Under the pieces are notes generated by a model. The model saw only the letters and a list, made by a program, of their open reading frames with translations, had not been told where the DNA came from and ran no database searches. Positions 10,067 through 27,562 of a DNA stretch of 40,462 nucleotides are shown here, in pieces. Position 1 is the stretch's first letter. Each line of letters begins with the position of its first letter. The DNA is from Myxococcales bacterium (GTDB lineage Bacteria > Myxococcota > UBA727 > GCA-2721815). Position numbers and translations under genes: made by a program. The stretch is from positions 1 through 40,462 of the forward strand of contig PBLQ01000036.1 in NCBI GenBank assembly GCA_002721815.1, read 5' to 3'.

Positions 10067-10180
10067 GATGCCTCCGCTCCCTGGACTAGCGCCCTGCTCA
10101 GAAAAGAACAAGATGCCCCCTTGTAGGAAACCTTGGAACACACTAAATCCTTAAGCACTTTCACTAGATGGAGTCTTGAA

Positions 10181-11386
10181 ATGGTATTGGGTTTTTCGAA
10201 GAAGATAGACATCAGCGATGCGGGCATCGCACAAATCAAGTCAGCACTATCAGAACTGCAAGAGCCTAATTTTAATAGGACATTAGGTGATTTGGGCATG
10301 ATTGGCGCCGTTGAAGCCAAGGACAAAGCGCTACACATCCAGTTGAAGCTTCCCACCCCTGCCCTCCTAGGCCTCGATGCACTCAAAGCCCAAATAGAAG
10401 CGAGTGTTCAAGCGGTTGAAAAAGATTGTCCGGTCGAATTCACATTGGAGTCCCATGTGCGTTCTGCTGTTGGAAATGCTTTTAGCGCACAGGCCATTCC
10501 TGGGGTGAAGAACATCATTTTGGTCGCATCTGGCAAAGGGGGCGTGGGCAAAAGTACGGTGGCCAGTAATTTGGCGGTCGGTTTGGCAGAAATGGGTGCC
10601 CAAGTGGGCCTATTGGACGCGGACATGTACGGCCCCTCTGCCCCTACCATGTTTGGTGTGCCCCCCGAAACCCGACCCGCTTCCATGCCTGGTCCAAACC
10701 CAGAGCGCCCCGTCATGGTGCCTCTATCCCGCTTTGGCATCAAGCTCATCAGTATTGGCTTTTTGGTAGACACTGCAACACCAATGATATGGCGCGGTCC
10801 CATGTTGGCCTCTGCTGCCATGCAGTTATTCAAAGAAGTTCACTGGGAAGAACTGGATTATTTGGTGGTGGATCTTCCACCGGGCACCGGAGATATTCAA
10901 CTCACCATTGCCCAGCAAGTGGCCGTGGCTGGCGCCGTTATCGTTTCCACGCCCCAAGACGTCGCTTTGGCCGACGTGGTGCGCGCAAAAGCGATGTTCG
11001 ATAAAGTGAACATCCCTGCTTTGGGCGTGGTTGAAAACATGAGCTATTTCATTTGCGATTCATGCGACAAAAAGCACGAGATTTTTACTTCCGGGGGCGC
11101 TGAAAAAGCGGCTGGTGTTTTAAACCTGCCCTACTTGGGGCATATACCCATCGAAGGAGAGGTTCGCGCTGGCGGTGACGAGGGCGCACCGGTGGTCATC
11201 CGTAACCCAGACCAACACAGTTCCCAAGCACTGAGAGACATATCGCGACGCGTTGCCACGCAGCTCGCAGTCCGTGCCCAAAGCCTCAAGGGAGACGTGA
11301 CCATTAAAGGCCCAAAACTCAAGGTGACTGGCGGGGTGGACACCAAAGACGCGACCCCGAAAAAAGGCTTGCCCATTATCAATTGA
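10181..11386 (+). CDS. mrp: Mrp/ApbC-family iron-sulfur cluster carrier ATPase
   Basis: The 401-residue protein has an N-terminal MIP18/DUF59-like domain (about 10-90) and a P-loop ATPase domain. The deviant Walker A is GKGGVGKST (118-126), followed by LLDADMYGPSAPTMFG and VVDLPPGTGD. A CxxC motif (Cys292, Cys295) is the expected cluster-bridging site at the dimer interface. Family members bind and transfer [4Fe-4S] clusters in the cytoplasm. Possible client enzymes nearby include MoaA. The ATG at 10181 is preferred because TGGAG lies seven bases before it; the frame extends to 10133. The Lys-rich tail after about residue 360 is longer than in short family members. The gene converges on the repeat protein gene, with only 26 bases between them. 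Confidence 0.93.
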   Translation: MVLGFSKKIDISDAGIAQIKSALSELQEPNFNRTLGDLGMIGAVEAKDKALHIQLKLPTPALLGLDALKAQIEASVQAVEKDCPVEFTLESHVRSAVGNAFSAQAIPGVKNIILVASGKGGVGKSTVASNLAVGLAEMGAQVGLLDADMYGPSAPTMFGVPPETRPASMPGPNPERPVMVPLSRFGIKLISIGFLVDTATPMIWRGPMLASAAMQLFKEVHWEELDYLVVDLPPGTGDIQLTIAQQVAVAGAVIVSTPQDVALADVVRAKAMFDKVNIPALGVVENMSYFICDSCDKKHEIFTSGGAEKAAGVLNLPYLGHIPIEGEVRAGGDEGAPVVIRNPDQHSSQALRDISRRVATQLAVRAQSLKGDVTIKGPKLKVTGGVDTKDATPKKGLPIIN

Positions 11387-11412: not shown

Positions 11413-13458
11413 TTACTTCGTACGCTCTCGGATTTTTGACAGGATATCATCTGTGGCAATTCCATTTTTGTGTGCCACCAATAACCCCCAAGGCACCTTG
11501 TGAAATGGCAGGGTGGGATCCAACGTTTCTGGTTCACCTTCGGCTGGGTCGGGGACAACCTCACTTTGGGGCTGTGATGTCCCATCAAACAGGCCCATCA
11601 ATTCTTGGTCCATATTGTCCGGATCGCCCACATCGCTCGATATCTCATCGTTCACGCGAACACGCGCAGTGGCAGTTTCGAAGAGTTCGTCCGCCTCATC
11701 TAAGGGAATTTCCTCTGCAAAGTCTTCCATCTCTTCAGACATCAAGAGATCTTTCAGCTCCTCTTCCATGTTGGACATTTGGCTTGAAGCAGGTGGCGTA
11801 CTCTCTTCGGTTAGTCCCATTGTGATATTGGTGACGTCCTCTTCCTCTTCTTCTAAGAGTGCGGAAAGTGCATCATCCATATCCCCCACATTGGCACCAG
11901 CGGGCGGTGTATTGTCGTCGGCAAAACTGGCAGAAAAATCCTCAGCGTCATCTTCTGCCAAAATATCAGACAAGGCTTCGTCCATATCGCCCACATCTGC
12001 CCCCGCGGGCGGCGTGTTGTCATCAGCAAAACTGGCAGCGAAATCCTCTGCATCATCATCCAAGAGCATATCCGACAATGCGTCATCCATATCACCGATA
12101 TTGGCCCCCGCAGGCGGCGTATTGTCATCAGCAAAACTGGCAGCGAAATCCTCAGCGTCATCTTCTGCAAGGATATCCGACAATGCTTCATCCATATCAC
12201 CTACGTTGGATCCTGCGGGCGGTGTATCATCATCAAAGCTCGCGGCGAAATCCTCAGCATCATCTTCTTCGAGCATATCCGACAATGCGTCATCCATATC
12301 ACCTACATTGGATCCTGCGGGCGGTGTATCATCATCAAAGCTCGCAGCGAAGTCCTCAGCATCATCTTCTTCGAGCATATCCGACAATGCGTCATCCATA
12401 TCACCCACGTGGTTACCCGCAGGTGGTGTGTCATCGTCATCAAAGCTGGCGGCAAAATCCTCGGCATCATCCTCCATGAGGATATCCGAGAGGGCCTGAT
12501 CCATATCGTCGAGGTTGGTTCCAGCAGGAGGGGTCGCCCCATCGAATGCATGATCGATGGTCTCTGTATCCTCATCTTCAGCCAAAAGTTCAGAAAGCTC
12601 TTGCTCCATGTTTATCATTTCGGCCCGGGTGGGTTCGAAATCATCATCACTTAAAGCTTCTATGACAGGCTCATTTTCCTGGCTCACCAAGATATCGGAA
12701 AGGTCATCATCTTCGATGTCTTCTTCGGACAGCTCGATGGCTATCTCCCCATCGTCAGCCTCCACGAATTCTATATCGTCGTCGATACCAATATCCAGTT
12801 CGAGTTCTATGTCATCTTGCCCTTCCAAGTCCTCGTCAACCAACAGATCTGACAAACCCGAGTCCATTGACACGATATCTGTATTACTGTCGGGGTCCTC
12901 GTCGAACGCTTCTAGGATGAGCAGGTCATCATCACCATCTAAATCGTCATTTGGAGCTGTAGGAGGCACAGAGGAGGTGTCACCATTGTTTGGTAAGGGC
13001 GGTGGTAAAGGCTCAGTGGATGCTTGGGGATAGAACTTTTCGATGGCATCTTCGATTTCTGAGGGGACCGCCAAAAACAAGTTTATTCTTTTACCCGTAT
13101 GGTGCCTGAGTTGATTTCTCGCATCGATGTTTAGAGGGTCAGCAGTGGCCACAAACAAAGATCCAGAAGAGGATGCAATGGTTGGAAAAACTTTGAGTTC
13201 ACGCGCCATGGCGGCAGGGACCTCATTGACTGCACTCCCCAAAGAGCTGTTCCCATGTAAATCCATGAACTCAACTCCCAGATGTTGGGACAAAGTCCAA
13301 AAAAACTGGCGCTCTGAAATGAAGCCTTCTGCCACCAAAATTTCGCCCAGCTTACGTGGCGGGTTTTCTGCTTCTTGCAATTGCAAAGCACGGCTGAGTT
13401 GGCTTTGATCCAACAACCCTTTTTCAATTAAGATCTCACCGATGCGCTTCGCTGGCAT
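11413..13458 (-). CDS. MshEN/GspE N-terminal domain protein with about ten acidic repeats
   Basis: The protein has 681 residues. Residues 5-28 and 35-58 are two copies of the MshEN-type helical motif (RIGEILIEKGLL and KLGEILVAEGFI), followed to about 145 by a GspE N-terminal-like fold. MshEN domains of secretion and pilus ATPases often bind c-di-GMP, but the ATPase domain is absent here. Residues 150-285 are very acidic. From about 285 to 625 a 34-35 residue unit repeats about ten times, each carrying M-[DE]-x-[AE]-L-S-D-[IML]-L, then an acidic stretch, FAASF and TPPAG. Two further LSD[LI]L motifs precede the array. The C-terminal 40 residues are again folded-looking. SD AGGGAG precedes the ATG by six bases. 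The likely role is a cytoplasmic scaffold or c-di-GMP-responsive adaptor, which is inference. Confidence 0.75.
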   Translation of the reverse strand: MPAKRIGEILIEKGLLDQSQLSRALQLQEAENPPRKLGEILVAEGFISERQFFWTLSQHLGVEFMDLHGNSSLGSAVNEVPAAMARELKVFPTIASSSGSLFVATADPLNIDARNQLRHHTGKRINLFLAVPSEIEDAIEKFYPQASTEPLPPPLPNNGDTSSVPPTAPNDDLDGDDDLLILEAFDEDPDSNTDIVSMDSGLSDLLVDEDLEGQDDIELELDIGIDDDIEFVEADDGEIAIELSEEDIEDDDLSDILVSQENEPVIEALSDDDFEPTRAEMINMEQELSELLAEDEDTETIDHAFDGATPPAGTNLDDMDQALSDILMEDDAEDFAASFDDDDTPPAGNHVGDMDDALSDMLEEDDAEDFAASFDDDTPPAGSNVGDMDDALSDMLEEDDAEDFAASFDDDTPPAGSNVGDMDEALSDILAEDDAEDFAASFADDNTPPAGANIGDMDDALSDMLLDDDAEDFAASFADDNTPPAGADVGDMDEALSDILAEDDAEDFSASFADDNTPPAGANVGDMDDALSALLEEEEEDVTNITMGLTEESTPPASSQMSNMEEELKDLLMSEEMEDFAEEIPLDEADELFETATARVRVNDEISSDVGDPDNMDQELMGLFDGTSQPQSEVVPDPAEGEPETLDPTLPFHKVPWGLLVAHKNGIATDDILSKIRERTK
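11862..12516 (-). repeat. Tandem in-frame 102/105-base repeats inside the MshEN protein gene
   Basis: The best-preserved units encode GDMDDALSDMLEEDDAEDF and FAASF...TPPAG. Conserved DNA landmarks (plus-strand sequence reading TCATCCATATC or close to it) recur near 11870, 11973, 12081, 12186, 12288, 12390 and 12495, so spacing alternates between 102 and 105 bases. The units around 12186-12390 are nearly identical, indicating recent duplication or gene conversion. More degenerate units flank the array on both sides. Confidence 0.9.
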
Positions 13459-13532: not shown

Positions 13533-14339
13533 TTAGAATCCACCCTGGATCCAAGGCCGAATCTCAACTCCAGGTATGTCTGGAGGCCGAAATGCCTCTT
13601 TAGCGATGGTAGGTTCATGTACGCTGCCTTCCTCCAAGTGGAACCTAATGGGGCCTTGGTCCTCCATCGCTATTTGCCATTTCATCTTTGTTGGATAGGT
13701 GATCTCTTTTTCAGTTTTGAACTCTTCATATTCGAGCGTCCACAATAATGTCTCCCCCCAGGATACTTTAACCTGCTGAATCATTTTATTCGCATTTAAA
13801 GTCACCTGCCATTTACGCCCCTTTTGATCCAATAAGAACAACACATGAATTTTTAGTTTTACATTGGTAAGGGCTTCTTGAATTTCCCATTGGTGCTGGG
13901 GAAGGAGCCCCCACCATAACCAAATAAAATCTTCAATATCTAAAGATTCCAATCCAAAAATAGTTTGAAGAAAATATTTGGGACGGCTCGTATATAGAAC
14001 GGGACCGCCCTCGCTAATGAGGTCCAACCAAGAACCATTCTCACCGTCAACCACCAAGAGATGGGTGGGCTGACCAAAAAATGATCGCACCGCCCAGTGT
14101 ACGCGGTCAGGGCTTTGAATGACCACGTCGCTTTGCACGTTCACGGGGAAAAAACCTAACGTGGGTCCGATCACTTTAACTTGTCCCACAAACTGTGCAT
14201 CAGGCACCCGGGCTTTTTCTACGGACGCCAACAAATCCTCGCCGGCAGAAGTAGAAATTGATTTGAGTTCTCCGGTGGTGACACAACCGGCAAGAAGCAG
14301 TAAAAAACCAATTATTGCGGTTAACGAATATCGACCCAT
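13533..14339 (-). CDS. LolB-like outer-membrane lipoprotein
   Basis: The protein has 268 residues with a clear lipoprotein signal (LLLLAGC, Cys19). The remainder is rich in beta-strand patterns such as FVGQVKVIGP, VNVQSDVVIQSPD, HLLVVDGENGSWLD and YPTKMKWQIAMED. These fit a LolB/LppX-type half-barrel that binds acyl chains, and the length is close to LolB plus a short extension. The gene follows the TPR lipoprotein gene by three bases, so the two are very likely co-transcribed; a TPR protein next to a LolB-like lipoprotein is a familiar arrangement in deltaproteobacterial genomes. Transfer of lipoproteins to the outer membrane is the natural guess, but the assignment rests on pattern, not alignment. 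DUF4292 is an alternative label. Confidence 0.6.
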   Translation of the reverse strand: MGRYSLTAIIGFLLLLAGCVTTGELKSISTSAGEDLLASVEKARVPDAQFVGQVKVIGPTLGFFPVNVQSDVVIQSPDRVHWAVRSFFGQPTHLLVVDGENGSWLDLISEGGPVLYTSRPKYFLQTIFGLESLDIEDFIWLWWGLLPQHQWEIQEALTNVKLKIHVLFLLDQKGRKWQVTLNANKMIQQVKVSWGETLLWTLEYEEFKTEKEITYPTKMKWQIAMEDQGPIRFHLEEGSVHEPTIAKEAFRPPDIPGVEIRPWIQGGF

Positions 14340-14342
14340 GAT

Positions 14343-16178
14343 TTAGGTACCACCTTTGATTTCCAGCATTAACGCATCTCTTAGTTTTTCTATACGCCGT
14401 TGGAGACGTTTTGAAAAAGTGAAAACGTCGCGAACCCGCTCGAGCGTGGCCAAGGCCTTTTCGGGCTGTGATGCACTCTGATAGGCCTTTGCCAAATGAA
14501 AGGCAATTTCCGCTTCACGAGGCATCAGGTAGTGCGCTCGTGATAGCGCCCACAAGGCCTTATCAATTTGACCATCCCGGTAAAATGCCCAACCCAAGGT
14601 GTCCAACAAGGCTCCGTTGAGCGGATCCCCCAACAACGCCCTCTGTGAGGCCTCAATGGCTTCTTCTAACCGGCTGTTATTTTCGGCCAGGGTGTAAGCC
14701 CAAAGATTCAACAAATAGGGCTCCATCCGAGACGCTTGCCGTAACAACCCCTCAATGACGTCCAAAGCATCAGATGCATATCCGTTTTCTAAAAACCAAA
14801 AGCCCACTGCCCAAGTCTTGGCATGATTGCCCTCATGGAGCATCTCGTCAGCCAATGCCAAGGCAGCGTCAGCTCCACTGTAATGCGCTTTCGCCTCTAT
14901 TTGCGCGATGTAAAACTCCATATCCGGTTCATGTTCCAACACAAAAAGATGAAACACCCGTTCCATTTGTCTTTGATTGACCTCAGGTGAAGGGCCTGCC
15001 GCTAATCGCAGCCACAAACGAATCAAAGTACCATCCATCTTTTTGTCCGTCAGGCGTTTCAACAACAAGCTATTTGCTTTCCCGAACCGCTTTGCTTGGA
15101 TCAGGTTCTCAACACAATTTTGTAGCTTTTTTGATTCGATATCTGCATGGCAGAATTTTTTGATTTTTGCCTCTGGCGAGATGGAGGCCAGACCGTCTTG
15201 CTCCATTGCCTTTTGAATCGCTTTGGGAATGCGGCGCAGTCCAAAATATACCCTGGCACGATCTTCCAAGCCCAATAAAAACCAAGGCCACCAAATGGCA
15301 GTGTCCGTTTTGATAGAGGAATGCTCAAACAGTTGAGGGCTGAGTGCAGCCGCTTTTTGTTCCTCTCCGTGCAGTAATCGTGTGAGTATCCATCGGTGCG
15401 CGTTACGGGTACTGGGTTGTTCGATGTAAAGACCTTTCGCTGCTTCTTCGACACCTTTTGTATCCTGAAAGACCATAGCATATCGCCAAGCCAAGCTCAG
15501 GACCTCTACATCGGCAGGGTTTAAATTCTGGGCCTGTGTGAAATAGCGATCTCCCATCTCCCATTGACCTGCCTCAAATAAACTTTCTGCCATAATGTAT
15601 GCTGCTTGCTGCGGCCCTCTCTGCGTTAACAACACCCCTTCATGAAATTGTGTCAACAGCTCTGTGTCCACTGGTGATTCAACCAAGATGGTGAGTGCCT
15701 GTGAAACGCACGAATGAGGCAATTGGTCGCGCCCCATCATTTCCCTTAAAATGGATTTGGCTTCAGAACTGCTTCCCATTTTACTGAGCATAAAGGCGCG
15801 CCAACAGGCAAAAATCGGTTGCCGTTTTTTGCCCGAGGCCTTTTGATTCCATTGTAGTGCCTTCTCCCAAGCCCCCGAGGCCCACAGAAGTTCGGATAAA
15901 CGATGCATCAGATAGGGAGAATCTGGATCGTGTACCAAGGCCTCTTTGATTTGCGCTATGGCCTCGGGCAACGCGCCGTGCTCTTGAAGCAGTTCTGCCC
16001 GCAGGAACGAAGCGTATGCTTCGCCTGAACTGCGGTCAGACTCGATGGCTGCTCCCAACACCCGAGGTGGTACCTGGGACACAGGGGCGAAACCCGGCTT
16101 TGTTGAAACATGTCCACAGGCCCCATTAGAAAGACCAGCCATTAGGATGAACAGGTTTAAATAAAGCTTAGTTCGCAT
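14343..16178 (-). CDS. Tetratricopeptide-repeat protein, probable lipoprotein
   Basis: The protein has 611 residues. The N-terminus has a hydrophobic signal sequence ending at NGACG; Cys20 could be lipidated, but Asn at -3 makes the lipobox non-canonical. Several TPR units are clear at the N-terminus (ALPEAIAQIKEALVHDPDSPYLMHRLSELLW) and C-terminus (RLEEAIEASQRALLGDPLNGALLDTLGWAFYRDGQIDKALWALSRAHYLMPREAEIAFHLAKAY is represented only in part here), with irregular helical repeats between. TPR proteins are protein-binding scaffolds; in this position it probably works in the periplasm with the LolB-like lipoprotein encoded three bases downstream. A terminator separates it from the propeller gene upstream. 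Confidence 0.75.
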   Translation of the reverse strand: MRTKLYLNLFILMAGLSNGACGHVSTKPGFAPVSQVPPRVLGAAIESDRSSGEAYASFLRAELLQEHGALPEAIAQIKEALVHDPDSPYLMHRLSELLWASGAWEKALQWNQKASGKKRQPIFACWRAFMLSKMGSSSEAKSILREMMGRDQLPHSCVSQALTILVESPVDTELLTQFHEGVLLTQRGPQQAAYIMAESLFEAGQWEMGDRYFTQAQNLNPADVEVLSLAWRYAMVFQDTKGVEEAAKGLYIEQPSTRNAHRWILTRLLHGEEQKAAALSPQLFEHSSIKTDTAIWWPWFLLGLEDRARVYFGLRRIPKAIQKAMEQDGLASISPEAKIKKFCHADIESKKLQNCVENLIQAKRFGKANSLLLKRLTDKKMDGTLIRLWLRLAAGPSPEVNQRQMERVFHLFVLEHEPDMEFYIAQIEAKAHYSGADAALALADEMLHEGNHAKTWAVGFWFLENGYASDALDVIEGLLRQASRMEPYLLNLWAYTLAENNSRLEEAIEASQRALLGDPLNGALLDTLGWAFYRDGQIDKALWALSRAHYLMPREAEIAFHLAKAYQSASQPEKALATLERVRDVFTFSKRLQRRIEKLRDALMLEIKGGT

Positions 16179-16261: not shown

Positions 16262-17482
16262 TTATTCAGGATATTTGTTAATTTTAAAGGAGTATAAGAA
16301 GGTGTCTCCCGACGCCACGTAAAAGGTGTCTCCATCAAATACGGAGTCCGCTTCGATTTTGTTATCGGTCTTATACTTCCAATAAACGGAGCCATCGGAA
16401 GTGCGCAACAGGTAAGCGTGGCCATCACCTTCCCCGGCGCCTACGAGAACCAAATTCTTATGAACGGCGGGAATCGCGAGAATGGGACCTTGAAGCGCCG
16501 TGCTCCATTTTTGCTCTCCTGTTTTGGCATCGATGGCGTACAGATTCTTGTCGCGAGAACCGCAATACAAAATACCTTTGTCATCTAACACCGGGGAAGA
16601 GTTGATTTCATCACCCGTTTTGACTTTCCAGACCACGGACTGGTCGGACATTTTGATTCCGTAGATGTTCCCATCGTTGGCGCCAAAGATGAGTTTACCA
16701 TCATACTCGGCGACACTGGAGGTGACGCCTAAGCCTTGTTTGGCACCATCGGTGGCGAAGCGCCATTGGTACTCCCCAGTTTTGGAGTCGATGGCGTAAA
16801 CATAACCGTCGAGGTTACCGATCACGATGAGCCCAGAAGAGGTCAACAGTGGCCGCGAGTAGGCAAAACCCTTCCCAGGCTTGACGACTGGCTTGGGCGC
16901 TGCCGCAGGCGCTGCTGCAGCCCCGGCGGGAGCGGACCCTTCAGCAGTGGCAGCGGGTGCTTCAGCGGCTTGCTCCGCCTTGGCTTCGGGTGCGGTTGCA
17001 GCCGGCTGGTCTTTGGTTGGATAGGTCCATTGGAGTTCCGACGTGATGAGGTCAAGCGCGTAAATGTGACCGTCATAAGAACCGAAAACCACATTCTTAC
17101 CCACAATGATGGGGTCGCCTTTAATCCTGTCGAAAGTGGGGTAGCGCCAGATTTGACGGCCGTCTTTATCTACGGCGTAAAAGTTGTGATTGGTGGAACC
17201 GAAAACGATAACATTTTCGTAAATAGCGGGAGCGGAAATCACGGGCTTTCGAGCCTGGAATTTCCACCGATAACGACCGTTTTTCTTTGTGACGGCATGA
17301 ACCTCACCAGACTCCGTACCAAAAACCACAAAATCGTCGGTCAAAGCCGGAGAACTGTAACACGCGGAATCAGAAGGGTACTTCCAATTGAGCTGAACGT
17401 TCTGCTCACAGCCCCCAAAAAGGGTTGCAGCCCCGACTGCAAAAACCAAAATCATCATGTTTGTCAACGATTTGCGCACCAT
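16262..17482 (-). CDS. BamB-like PQQ-type beta-propeller lipoprotein
   Basis: The protein has 406 residues from the ATG at 17482, where GGGAG lies five bases upstream; the frame continues to 17518 without a better start. The lipobox LFGGC places the lipidated cysteine at residue 25. The body is a chain of PQQ-like blades recognisable as pairs of strands with GxxY/FAxDxxTGxxxW patterns, for example GYVYAIDSKTGEYQW and KNLYAIDAKTGEQKW. About seven or eight blades fit. BamB, the closest functional analogue, is an outer-membrane assembly lipoprotein, but no Bam partner adjoins it, so this remains a structural label. An Ala/Pro/Glu-rich linker of about 40 residues interrupts the propeller after the third or fourth blade, which is unusual. 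Confidence 0.85.
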   Translation of the reverse strand: MVRKSLTNMMILVFAVGAATLFGGCEQNVQLNWKYPSDSACYSSPALTDDFVVFGTESGEVHAVTKKNGRYRWKFQARKPVISAPAIYENVIVFGSTNHNFYAVDKDGRQIWRYPTFDRIKGDPIIVGKNVVFGSYDGHIYALDLITSELQWTYPTKDQPAATAPEAKAEQAAEAPAATAEGSAPAGAAAAPAAAPKPVVKPGKGFAYSRPLLTSSGLIVIGNLDGYVYAIDSKTGEYQWRFATDGAKQGLGVTSSVAEYDGKLIFGANDGNIYGIKMSDQSVVWKVKTGDEINSSPVLDDKGILYCGSRDKNLYAIDAKTGEQKWSTALQGPILAIPAVHKNLVLVGAGEGDGHAYLLRTSDGSVYWKYKTDNKIEADSVFDGDTFYVASGDTFLYSFKINKYPE

Positions 17483-17607
17483 ATGCACTCCCACTGTTAG
17501 CTGATCCCAAACCCTCATGAGAGGATCGTTTGGTAAGACAAGGCTGTTCTCTTACAACTCCGAGCTGAAATCAAGCTTAACCGCATGTTTTATTTACTTT
17601 AGTGACC

Positions 17608-23542: not shown

Positions 23543-26500
23543 CTAAAACTCCCAGCGGTACCACATATCTGCACCCGCATCGCCGATACTAGATTCACCC
23601 GAAGAGTCCCATACCAGCCGCCAGCGCAGTTTTCCCTTTAAACGCTGTTCTAACTCCATCTTTTGCTCGGTATCACCTTCGCCGTCCTCTAAAAGGGTGC
23701 TTTGAATGCGTAAACGCATCCCTTCGAACAGCTCTACCCCCATCACCACCGCTGGAACGTTGCTCCCGTCCTTTTCTGAAAAAGCAGTGGTCAACCGCAA
23801 TTCATCCAATGACAGCGCGTCAGTGTCCGCGATGCTCGCGGGGATTAACCTTTTGAGCTCTTTGTCCAGACCGGTGTACGCAGAGACCATCTCTAAGCCT
23901 GCAGCCCCTGCGGTCCCTGCCGCATCCTTCAGTTCCCGTTGCGTAAATCCCAAAGTGACCAAGCTTAAAACATCAATTTCTGATAGTTTGGGTTTGCTGT
24001 CGAACTTAATGCGCAAGTCCTCCAATGGCCCCATCATAAAAGCGGTCACATCAAAATCCTTGATTCGGGTTTCAGCTTCGATGTCCAGCCGAGGCGCAAT
24101 CCGATAGGTTTCCGCAAAATCAATATTCCCACGAAGCAGCCTGTATCGGTTGCCCCTGACATTGGCTTGCCCTTCTATGGCCTGGACCACGCCTCGCAGA
24201 CCAATCCGTTCTTCTGTCCCGGTAATGAACAAATCCGCTTTCAACTCTGCATTGAGCAAATTGTTTTGTACAAACACCTTTTTGTCCGCCAAAATATGCA
24301 CGTCCAGTTTGAGGTCTTCCTCTTCTTTTTGATAACTTTGTATTTTCTTCAATCGCGTTTTAAACTCCGGCAAAAACTCTTCGCTGCCGAGGTTGTCAGC
24401 GTACCGCGCCTCTTGAATTTTAATTTCTCCGGTTAAGGTGGGTTTTTGGGAAACCCCAACCAGTCGCAATCGCCCGTCGGATTTGGAGGCCAACCAGGAT
24501 GGATAGCGACCTTCCCAGTTGTTGTAGTTGATGACAACGTCATAGAAGGTGGGCCGCACACCTCGGTGCTGCACCGTCCCAGAAAGGGCAACTGGCGCCC
24601 CATTGGCCCGGGCAGTGACTTGACCAATGGCTACTTCCTTCCCCCTAAAAATAATGCCGCCCGATACATCTTGGAAAGCGTCCGGAAAAAAAGACAGTTT
24701 GATTACGCTTTTCTCCAAGTCACCTTTGCCCGTCACACGAGGTTTTGATGTTGCACCGGTCAGGCCCAAATTAAATTTGAACCGTCCGGAGAATTGATCG
24801 ACCTTGGGAATATGCGCTTGGAACAGCTCTGGATTGAGCACACCTTGCGTTCGCATCTCAATCCGTTGAGAGTTGATGAATCCTTTCAAATCGACCTTCT
24901 CATCATTGTCGCTGGCAAAAGCGGCCTTGTCCGCGTGCAATGTTTTCCCCACTGTCCTTAAGGCCACAGCACCCTTGGAACGGTAGACTTGGTCTCCTTT
25001 TTTGAGCCGGAGTCCCGGAATAGAAATATTGCCTTTGGTGCTCTCGATGTTTTTGATGTTCCCCGTCCAAGAAGCATTTAAACCATTGGAAGACATTTCC
25101 CACTTATCGGGCAGCCACGCCGCCGGCCAGATTTCTTTGTCGAGCCGGCCATCTTTGACGCTGATCGTGGCATCAAAATCGAAGGGCCGTTTCAAGCCGA
25201 GCCGGGTATGCATGTGTCCTTGCTTACGCCAGAGCCCGCCTTTGAAGTCCATAACCTTATCTTCCACTTGAACGGCCCAGTTGAGTCCCCCAAACCGCAT
25301 GGGGCCCAAACCCGCCCCCTTCCATCGCGCCTGTCCCTTGACGGTGGGATTGCTGGCATCGCCTTGTAACGTGCCCCGAAAACCGAGTTCGCCAAAAAGC
25401 CCGTAGGGCAATTCATCGTTGATATCCAACTGTGCCACACGCAAGCCCGCCATTTCGATTTGACCATCAATGGTTCCTTCTTTTCGTTTAATCTTTAAAT
25501 GCGTTTTTACAGCACCACTGGCCATACTGCCTTGGAACTGCTTAAGCCTGAACTGCTCTTTGTCTAAAACGAAGCTTGTGTTCCATCGCCCCAGCTTTTG
25601 TTTGAGCAAACGCGTCCCCTGAGTGCTGCTGAATTGTCCTTTTCCCACCAAGGAACGGGTTTGGCCGCCTGCGATGTTCCCTGACAGTTGGGTGTTACCG
25701 CTAATGGCGCCGCTCAGTGGCAGTGATTTGATGACGTCCATGACCCCTGATTTGGGATTTTTTGGGATGATATTTTGTAAGTCCCCCACGAAGCCTCGCG
25801 CCACTTTGAAATCGGTTTTTAAAAGAAGGGGTGCGCGTTTGCTTTTTTTTCTGGATTTGAAATGCAGAGAAAAGTCGCCACGCAACTGGGTGCGGCCTTT
25901 TAGGATCGAAGCATTACGAAGTTGAAGTTTTTTGCCAATATAACTGACCTTCGATTTAACTTTACCAATACTGTATTTCTCAAAGTTAAAATTTTCGATT
26001 TCAGCATCACCACGTATTTTGATGTCTTTATAAGGCCCCTTCACCAAGGTTCTCACCTTGCCTTGCCCACTAAAATCCAACCCGGCAATCTTATTGTCAA
26101 TCGTATTGAAATTGAACTGGGGCGCAAAGGCTTCGATTTCTAACCCGGCCTCGCCATTAAAGTACAGCCTCGCATCGGCGCGTATCCGAGATAAACCATC
26201 GTCAAAAATGGCATCTTTCAAGTCAAAGAAAGCTGCCGACATCTCCACGTTGCTCTGCAACGGAAGTTGGGGCACGTACAAAACGGGGGTTGCAGGATCA
26301 GCAGTTTTGGCATCGCTCGAAAAAACTTTAAAATCTTTAATGAGCCCTACGCTTTGCCCTTTAAAGGTAAACTCGGGTAGCACTTGCCCTTCCCCAAAAG
26401 TATGAATGTTCGCCGACAATTCAACCCAAGGGGACGAAATGCCCACGTCACTGAGCACTTGGTACAAGGAGATGTTTTCACCCACGGTATCCAAAGAGAA

Positions 26501-27562
26501 TTGAAACGGTGGTTTGAGGTTGACCTGTCCAAACAGAGAAAGCGTTGTTCCTCCAGCTTGGATTTGTCCTCTGGAAATATAAATGCTTTCTAAATCACCA
26601 TGGTAATCGATATCGAGCGTCCCTATTTTTCGGTTATCAATTTCCAGTGCCTTCACCAAGGCTTTACCCTTGAGCTGTGGTGGCGCATTGGCTTCCCCCA
26701 ACCATGTCAGCTCAATGTCTGCTTTGCCTGCAATGGGCGCCACCATGGGTGGTTGCGCGAAGAAACTGTCCAAATCTACCGAAGTTTGGATGGTGAGTTG
26801 GTAGTTAGGCACCCAAGCAGGCAAAAAAGCTAACGTTCCTGAAACCTGGACGGTGCCTTCGTCACCCTGCACCTCGAAACCCTTCAAATGGATTTGATCG
26901 GGATGAATCCAGTTAGAAGCATCCATCTCTAAGAGCCCTTTTTTCCCCTCGTAGTAAAAGACCCCATCTGGATTTTTCCAGGTTAACGTATCAAAAACGA
27001 TATCCCCTTCTAGATGTTCTCCATCACCTTCCAAGGACAGATGGATGCCATCGATATGCCAGCTGGTTTGGGAGGCCTCACCGACGCGAAGCTCGCCGGC
27101 ACCATCTTCAATTATCAAGCGCTGCGTTTGCAAGACTGGGATATCCTCTAATATGGCAGGGTCGATTGTGGCTGCATCAAACTGGATGTTTTTCATCCCA
27201 GTTTTGGGCAAAGCCAGAACCGCTTTGGGCGCTTGGAGTTTAATGCTTTCGAAAACCCACGCCTTAGAGAACAGCGACGCGAAAAATGAAAAGTCACCTT
27301 CAAGTGCCCCCGCGCTTAAAATAAGGCTACCGTCCTTACCGTGAATAGAAGGCGAAGAAACAGAAAACTTACCAGCCCATGGTTCGATCATCACTCTAGA
27401 AGTCACGATTTCCCAGCCCGTTTTTTCTTCTAATTTTTGGATGTTCGTATCAAAAAGCCAGGCCCACAGGATGGGTTGGTGTAAACCCACGCCTAGGAGG
27501 GCTAAAGCGCCCATGAAAATGATGCGTCCTCGCCAGGACTGTATTTTCGATTGCGCTTTCAT
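23543..27562 (-). CDS. tamB: TamB-like translocation and assembly module / lipid-bridge protein
   Basis: The protein has 1339 residues. An N-terminal membrane anchor (about residues 14-36) is followed by a very long repetitive beta-strand region typical of AsmA/TamB-type bridge proteins, in which a hydrophobic groove spans the periplasm. The C-terminal third matches the DUF490/TamB domain, with LRGVVQAIEGQANVRGNRYRLL, RLDIEAETRI and LSLVTLGFTQREL (each within the last 300 residues). TamB works with TamA in inserting outer-membrane proteins and, with YhdP-type proteins, in moving phospholipids to the outer membrane. The gene lies 12 bases after the DUF493 gene and 129 bases before the Omp85 gene, with the tamB-tamA order reversed relative to E. 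coli. Confidence 0.92.
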   Translation of the reverse strand: MKAQSKIQSWRGRIIFMGALALLGVGLHQPILWAWLFDTNIQKLEEKTGWEIVTSRVMIEPWAGKFSVSSPSIHGKDGSLILSAGALEGDFSFFASLFSKAWVFESIKLQAPKAVLALPKTGMKNIQFDAATIDPAILEDIPVLQTQRLIIEDGAGELRVGEASQTSWHIDGIHLSLEGDGEHLEGDIVFDTLTWKNPDGVFYYEGKKGLLEMDASNWIHPDQIHLKGFEVQGDEGTVQVSGTLAFLPAWVPNYQLTIQTSVDLDSFFAQPPMVAPIAGKADIELTWLGEANAPPQLKGKALVKALEIDNRKIGTLDIDYHGDLESIYISRGQIQAGGTTLSLFGQVNLKPPFQFSLDTVGENISLYQVLSDVGISSPWVELSANIHTFGEGQVLPEFTFKGQSVGLIKDFKVFSSDAKTADPATPVLYVPQLPLQSNVEMSAAFFDLKDAIFDDGLSRIRADARLYFNGEAGLEIEAFAPQFNFNTIDNKIAGLDFSGQGKVRTLVKGPYKDIKIRGDAEIENFNFEKYSIGKVKSKVSYIGKKLQLRNASILKGRTQLRGDFSLHFKSRKKSKRAPLLLKTDFKVARGFVGDLQNIIPKNPKSGVMDVIKSLPLSGAISGNTQLSGNIAGGQTRSLVGKGQFSSTQGTRLLKQKLGRWNTSFVLDKEQFRLKQFQGSMASGAVKTHLKIKRKEGTIDGQIEMAGLRVAQLDINDELPYGLFGELGFRGTLQGDASNPTVKGQARWKGAGLGPMRFGGLNWAVQVEDKVMDFKGGLWRKQGHMHTRLGLKRPFDFDATISVKDGRLDKEIWPAAWLPDKWEMSSNGLNASWTGNIKNIESTKGNISIPGLRLKKGDQVYRSKGAVALRTVGKTLHADKAAFASDNDEKVDLKGFINSQRIEMRTQGVLNPELFQAHIPKVDQFSGRFKFNLGLTGATSKPRVTGKGDLEKSVIKLSFFPDAFQDVSGGIIFRGKEVAIGQVTARANGAPVALSGTVQHRGVRPTFYDVVINYNNWEGRYPSWLASKSDGRLRLVGVSQKPTLTGEIKIQEARYADNLGSEEFLPEFKTRLKKIQSYQKEEEDLKLDVHILADKKVFVQNNLLNAELKADLFITGTEERIGLRGVVQAIEGQANVRGNRYRLLRGNIDFAETYRIAPRLDIEAETRIKDFDVTAFMMGPLEDLRIKFDSKPKLSEIDVLSLVTLGFTQRELKDAAGTAGAAGLEMVSAYTGLDKELKRLIPASIADTDALSLDELRLTTAFSEKDGSNVPAVVMGVELFEGMRLRIQSTLLEDGEGDTEQKMELEQRLKGKLRWRLVWDSSGESSIGDAGADMWYRWEF

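Follow-up and report, generated by a model that had tools for sequence, protein, structure and literature searches.

Receptors of the second messenger c-di-GMP usually target a single partner or enzyme. The described proteins closest to the one studied here are those with an MshEN/GSPII domain (PF05157, NF053729), such as MshE (5htl) and PilF GSPII-B (8pdk), with which it has the fold, two motifs of 24 residues and most ligand contacts in common, and from which it differs in lacking an ATPase, in having His in place of a motif II Gln and in carrying an acidic repeat arm instead. Fusions of MshEN to non-ATPase regions and an abundance of MshEN genes, up to 22 in Myxococcus xanthus, are described by Wang et al. 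2016, and a repeat-array scaffold of the present kind was not found in the accessible portion of that paper (PMC5013675).

The protein is encoded on contig PBLQ01000036.1 of a Myxococcales bacterium, within a stretch of 40,462 nucleotides called the window below. Its genome encodes seven MshEN proteins according to a Pfam search, that is, six besides the studied one, and MshEN proteins that lack an ATPase are common in the phylum. An earlier note on this DNA, made from the sequence alone, had proposed a previously undescribed system, which is an overstatement because ATPase-less MshEN proteins are known and, according to PMC5013675, MshEN genes are abundant. Two of the other MshEN proteins of the genome were inspected by eye. 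One (L241, 11-2299) has a kinase-like N-terminus, an acidic linker (..DTPPSYEVDDFEATSAPGG..), an MshEN domain (the only part assigned by Pfam) and receiver-like parts, and the other (L240, 438-1391) is a 317-aa MshEN protein with a GAF-like C-terminal half and no ATPase.

An MshEN head and its putative c-di-GMP contacts

The gene and the parts of its product are as follows, and an AGGGAG sequence precedes the ATG of the open reading frame.

11413..13458, minus strand: whole gene, 681 aa, comprising MshEN head, acidic repeat arm and C-terminal hairpin
13018..13458, minus strand: MshEN head, aa 1-147 (PF05157, E 1.8e-16; NF053729; Foldseek 5htl)
13375..13446, minus strand: c-di-GMP motif I, aa 5-28, RIGEILIEKGLLDQSQLSRALQLQ, R-I-G...L...L..Q (alignment with MshE 5htl; motif as given in PMC5013675)
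13282..13353, minus strand: c-di-GMP motif II, aa 36-59, KLGEILVAEGFISERQFFWTLSQH, K-L-G...F...L..H (alignment with MshE)
12544..13008, minus strand: acidic linker, aa 151-305, with three dispersed motif copies (motif search; pLDDT mostly <50)
11800..12534, minus strand: tandem array, aa 309-553, seven units of 34-37 aa each, with motif copies 4-10
11419..11490, minus strand: C-terminal helical hairpin, aa 657-680, GLLVAHKNGIATDDILSKIRER (helices 657-664 and 669-680, pLDDT ~75)

The head scored 53.9 bits against the NCBIfam model NF053729 'c-di-GMP_motif' (cut-off 38). In an AlphaFold2 model, computed with 21 syntenic relatives in the alignment, the head (pLDDT mostly 91-97) adopts the two-subdomain MshEN fold, and its best PDB match in Foldseek is MshE with c-di-GMP (5htl, TM 0.83 on target), the other top matches being PilF GSPII domains, several of them c-di-GMP-bound. 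Beyond the head, Pfam and NCBIfam returned neither an ATPase family nor any other known domain, so that the C-terminal Walker A/B ATPase of PilB/GspE was not found. These results bear out the earlier description of the head as MshEN without the ATPase.

The head was aligned to MshE 5htl, with contact residues taken from PMC5013675. Motif I is complete (R5, I6, G7, L21, L25, Q28), with Ile replacing the first Leu of RLGxx..xxG..xxxxLxxxLxxQ. Motif II is incomplete, as three of its six contact positions are changed relative to MshE (R38K, L54F, Q61H) and L39, G40 and L58 are kept. Both ligand-contacting glycines are retained, and the spacer between the motifs is 7 aa rather than 5, a length also seen in aligned PilB chains. 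The structural comparison proposed in the earlier note thus yielded 5htl as the best match with most contact residues kept, and the head is for this reason not one that lacks the ligand contacts of MshEN domains, an outcome that would have counted against the earlier proposal.

The changes in motif II raise the question of whether the head senses a ligand at all. Its role could instead be to interact with proteins, like its counterparts in XpsE or PilF GSPII-A, which would make the whole protein a ligand-independent scaffold. The altered contacts and the 7-aa spacer fit such a reading, as does position 61, which is Gln in 21 of 21 aligned relatives and His only here; in PilF GSPII-A both glutamines are replaced, by His and Arg, motif II is degenerate, and c-di-GMP is not bound (PMC12002112). 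Nevertheless, we regard a ligand-blind head as unlikely, given the complete motif I, the two glycines and the score above the NF053729 cut-off, and given that Lys and large hydrophobic residues are tolerated elsewhere. PilF GSPII-B has Lys/Leu at the first motif positions and still binds with a KD of 6 nM, and its single Q-to-E mutants retain binding at 460-950 nM, including Q218E, at the glutamine equivalent to the changed one of motif II, with a KD of 460 nM (PMC11731258). Together, the complete motif I and the PilF variants tolerating changes like those of motif II make binding plausible and probably weakened; judged from sequence and model, c-di-GMP binding by the head is probable, and the Gln-to-His change is likely to reduce its affinity. 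Because six GGDEF proteins are encoded in the same genome, c-di-GMP itself is likely present.

Twelve motif copies in an acidic arm

The arm is strongly acidic, with 172 Asp/Glu against 4 Lys/Arg in residues 151-650, and is predicted to be mostly disordered (pLDDT mostly <50). The prediction places short helices on several copies of a motif, M-[DE]-x-x-L-S-[DE]-h-L. This motif occurs 12 times, seven times inside the tandem array and five times outside it.

12841..12867, minus strand: copy 1, MDSGLSDLL, outside the array (motif L at aa 202)
12688..12714, minus strand: copy 2, EDDDLSDIL, outside the array (aa 253)
12583..12609, minus strand: copy 3, MEQELSELL, outside the FAASF units, followed by TPPAG (aa 288)
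12478..12504, minus strand: copy 4, MDQALSDIL (aa 323)
12373..12399, minus strand: copy 5, MDDALSDML (aa 358)
12271..12297, minus strand: copy 6, MDDALSDML (aa 392)
12169..12195, minus strand: copy 7, MDEALSDIL (aa 426)
12064..12090, minus strand: copy 8, MDDALSDML (aa 461)
11959..11985, minus strand: copy 9, MDEALSDIL (aa 496)
11854..11880, minus strand: copy 10, MDDALSALL (aa 531)
11743..11769, minus strand: copy 11, MEEELKDLL, outside the array (aa 568)
11587..11613, minus strand: copy 12, MDQELMGLF, outside the array (aa 620)

At the DNA level, Tandem Repeats Finder reported a period of 105 bp with 6.1 copies and 82% match, corresponding to a unit of ~35 aa, DMDDALSDMLEEDDAEDFAASFDDDTPPAGSNVG and variants (for example MDDALSDMLEEDDAEDFAASF). 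FAASF (once FSASF) follows six motif copies, and TPPAG or TPPAS follows eight. The repetition noticed earlier, about ten copies plus two outlying ones, therefore stands with 12 copies, but five rather than two lie outside the array, and FAASF and TPPAG, said to follow each copy, do so only in the numbers given, as the outlying copies lack FAASF.

When the arm was shuffled 5000 times, LSDhL-like motifs occurred with a mean of 0.05 and a maximum of 2, compared to 11 matched in the real arm. Outside the array, 5 strict copies were observed against 0.005 expected by shuffling, in surroundings that are unrelated, and this recurrence outside the tandem units is how a short docking motif would behave. 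A comparison of six array units gave a pooled pS of 0.61, at which silent sites are near saturation, and a pN of 0.09, that is, a ratio of 0.15. Because silent sites are nearly saturated and the residues are kept, the units are old and their protein sequence is under purifying selection. Gene conversion by itself does not explain the likeness between units, as it would have erased the silent differences too. The ratio was 0.21 for MDxALSDxL, 0.10 for EDDAEDFAASF and 0.19 for TPPAG, so that constraint is spread about evenly over the unit and does not point to the LSDIL helix in particular as the binding site. Repetition beyond chance, predicted disorder and selection, the attributes of a multivalent short-linear-motif scaffold, are thus all found in the arm.

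The motif was then sought among 146 genomes including its own, a set in which the class is represented by 16 genomes and the same family by none. In a profile search, the exact repeat unit was absent from every other protein of its own genome and of the 145 others, and the whole protein, used as query against genome contigs, returned no relative. In the arms of syntenic relatives, a profile of the 12 copies scored no higher than shuffles (combined p 0.38). Relaxing the pattern to h-x-[DE]-[LI]-[LF] gave a nominal enrichment over all relatives, which was not significant when one per family was counted (p ~0.14), and same-composition control patterns were partly enriched alike; in the nearest relative by head (L155, of genome G017) the search gave SIASALSDSV with p 0.11. 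At this depth, which includes no genome of the same family, the motif is confined to the studied protein, an outcome that the earlier note had named as speaking against its multivalent docking scaffold. That proposal hence gains from the disorder, the helices, the selection and the copies outside the array, and loses by the absence of the motif from the syntenic relatives and the 145 genomes.

What the relatives share is the head and a disordered arm, the arm sequences being entirely different and total protein lengths ranging from ~310 to 1200 aa. Several arms are Pro/Ala-rich rather than acidic, and some carry unrelated low-complexity repeats specific to their lineage, namely SPPGDEPVDNSPIREALSVN x4, PAAEAEPAVEA, EAVEEMEAVEEI and PAWAPP (L059, L063, L161, L062). 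Such a pattern is what would be expected if the arm bridged head and C-terminal hairpin as a charged, extended spacer or brush in which length, charge and disorder mattered and the repeats had only built up length. A mere spacer would not be expected to show a pN/pS of 0.15 among units, with the hydrophobic M, L, I and F positions included in the constraint, nor to have motif copies outside the array, and we consider this explanation rather unlikely. Docking-like helices also occur in other arms: Myxococcaceae-like relatives (L149, L159, L163-L195) keep one acidic helix, DxL[DE]D[LI]LG, while the Pro-rich remainder of the arm drifts, and three f8 relatives have [MI]x[DE]LLSRVGL in common. These two cases suggest that docking-like helices may be common to the arms of the family, and that the studied lineage may have multiplied its own version.

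A further reading takes the motif as mimicry of the pilus ATPase PilB, in which an acidic helix, for example MDDIINEFEED, comes after MshEN. Head and acidic amphipathic helix would then imitate the N-terminal half of PilB and compete for a PilB partner. The linkers between MshEN and ATPase in PilB proteins of the phylum (L002, L021, L220, L226-L239) carry a conserved [MLIVY][DE][DE][IVL][MIL]xx[FL][DE][DE] that resembles MDDALSDMLEED by eye, but profile tests in both directions were not significant (p ~0.2) and the locus is no pilus locus, which makes a decoy very improbable. An origin of the motif from a PilB linker was rejected on the same profile tests despite the look-alike.

A conserved TPR, LolB-fold lipoprotein and MshEN locus

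The neighbours of the gene in the window are listed below.

10133..11386, plus strand: Mrp/NUBPL-type ATPase, convergent neighbour
13533..14339, minus strand: LolB-fold lipoprotein, 268 aa, upstream neighbour (profile of syntenic relatives, E 3e-11; AF2 pLDDT 83.7; Foldseek LolB 9tpm)
14343..16178, minus strand: TPR lipoprotein, 611 aa (Pfam TPR; its relatives are syntenic with an MshEN pair)
16262..17518, minus strand: BamB-like PQQ-propeller lipoprotein, on the same strand as the MshEN gene

The 268-aa lipoprotein had no Pfam match, and the best Foldseek match of its predicted structure was LolB 9tpm, followed by other LolA/LolB structures. Further upstream, the BamB-like propeller and MreB are encoded on the same strand, and beyond them comes the gene for a BamA-type Omp85 protein. 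The propeller bears an Ala/Pro-rich insert, EAPAATAEGSAPAGAAAAPAAAPKP. An open reading frame of 1339 aa (23543-27562) adjoins the BamA-type Omp85 gene, and its size and place suggest TamB.

Syntenic loci in other genomes were reached via the upstream TPR gene. In relatives the order is (TPR), LolB-fold lipoprotein, short MshEN (~270 aa) and second MshEN, with the TPR lipoprotein often preceding. Twelve or more families of the phylum have the lipoprotein with the MshEN pair, or else the pair itself (examples are L057, L058, L062, L063, L149, L159 and L193-L216). In one example (L058, on contig JACOUT010000007.1, shared with L148), the locus is followed by Mrp, ThiS and ThiG, as in the window.

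The studied gene follows those for the TPR protein and the LolB-fold lipoprotein on their downstream side, which is the position of the second MshEN, and in a tree of heads it falls within the second-MshEN clade (support 84/95), its nearest single row being a non-locus protein of G017 (support 98/76). With the second MshEN proteins (L057, L062, L063, L149) it shares gene position, head clade and a long disordered arm; it differs from them in its unique repeat unit and motif and in the short MshEN gene, which is missing from the locus and for which the genome gave no match. Its predicted C-terminal hairpin resembles by eye their short helical element, LIRLLIxKGxIxExEFLEEL, and is not detected by the profile of that element. 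In the literature searched, we found no description of a TPR/LolB-like/MshEN operon or of MshEN scaffolds. The combination of a LolB-fold lipoprotein with an MshEN pair raises the possibility that the locus links c-di-GMP to the handling of outer-membrane lipoproteins.

A putative c-di-GMP-tuned adaptor

Building on the head fold (from sequence and model), the repeats and the selection on them, the predicted disorder and the synteny, we tentatively favour, with somewhat less than even confidence, a joint reading in which the protein is its lineage's version of the second MshEN of the conserved locus and a cytoplasmic, c-di-GMP-tuned envelope adaptor with a multivalent docking arm. The ATPase-less head would respond to c-di-GMP or to a protein partner and would lead into the strongly negative, mostly disordered arm with its twelve amphipathic acidic helices (MDxALSDIL). 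Each helix copy may dock one molecule of one common putative partner, so that a single sensor could collect many partner molecules, or sequester them, close to envelope machinery, and c-di-GMP would shift the place at which the head binds and with it the place where the loaded arm is held. Against this reading stand the exact motif, which is not conserved in relatives, the looser pattern, which is not significant with one relative per family, the even constraint over the repeat unit, the second glutamine contact, which is lost only here, and the missing short MshEN gene.

A bolder form of the adaptor reading, which we hold to be doubtful, is a second-messenger-gated scaffold, in which the c-di-GMP head would control twelve near-identical docking helices collecting a single envelope-biogenesis partner, within a phylum-wide locus linking c-di-GMP to LolB-like lipoprotein handling. 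The many MshEN proteins of the phylum are mostly unexplained. The conserved link between the MshEN pair and the LolB-fold lipoprotein points to a putative input of c-di-GMP into outer-membrane assembly, one not described in the literature searched. A receptor with a dozen copies of one docking helix would turn a small-molecule signal into the collection of many partner molecules.
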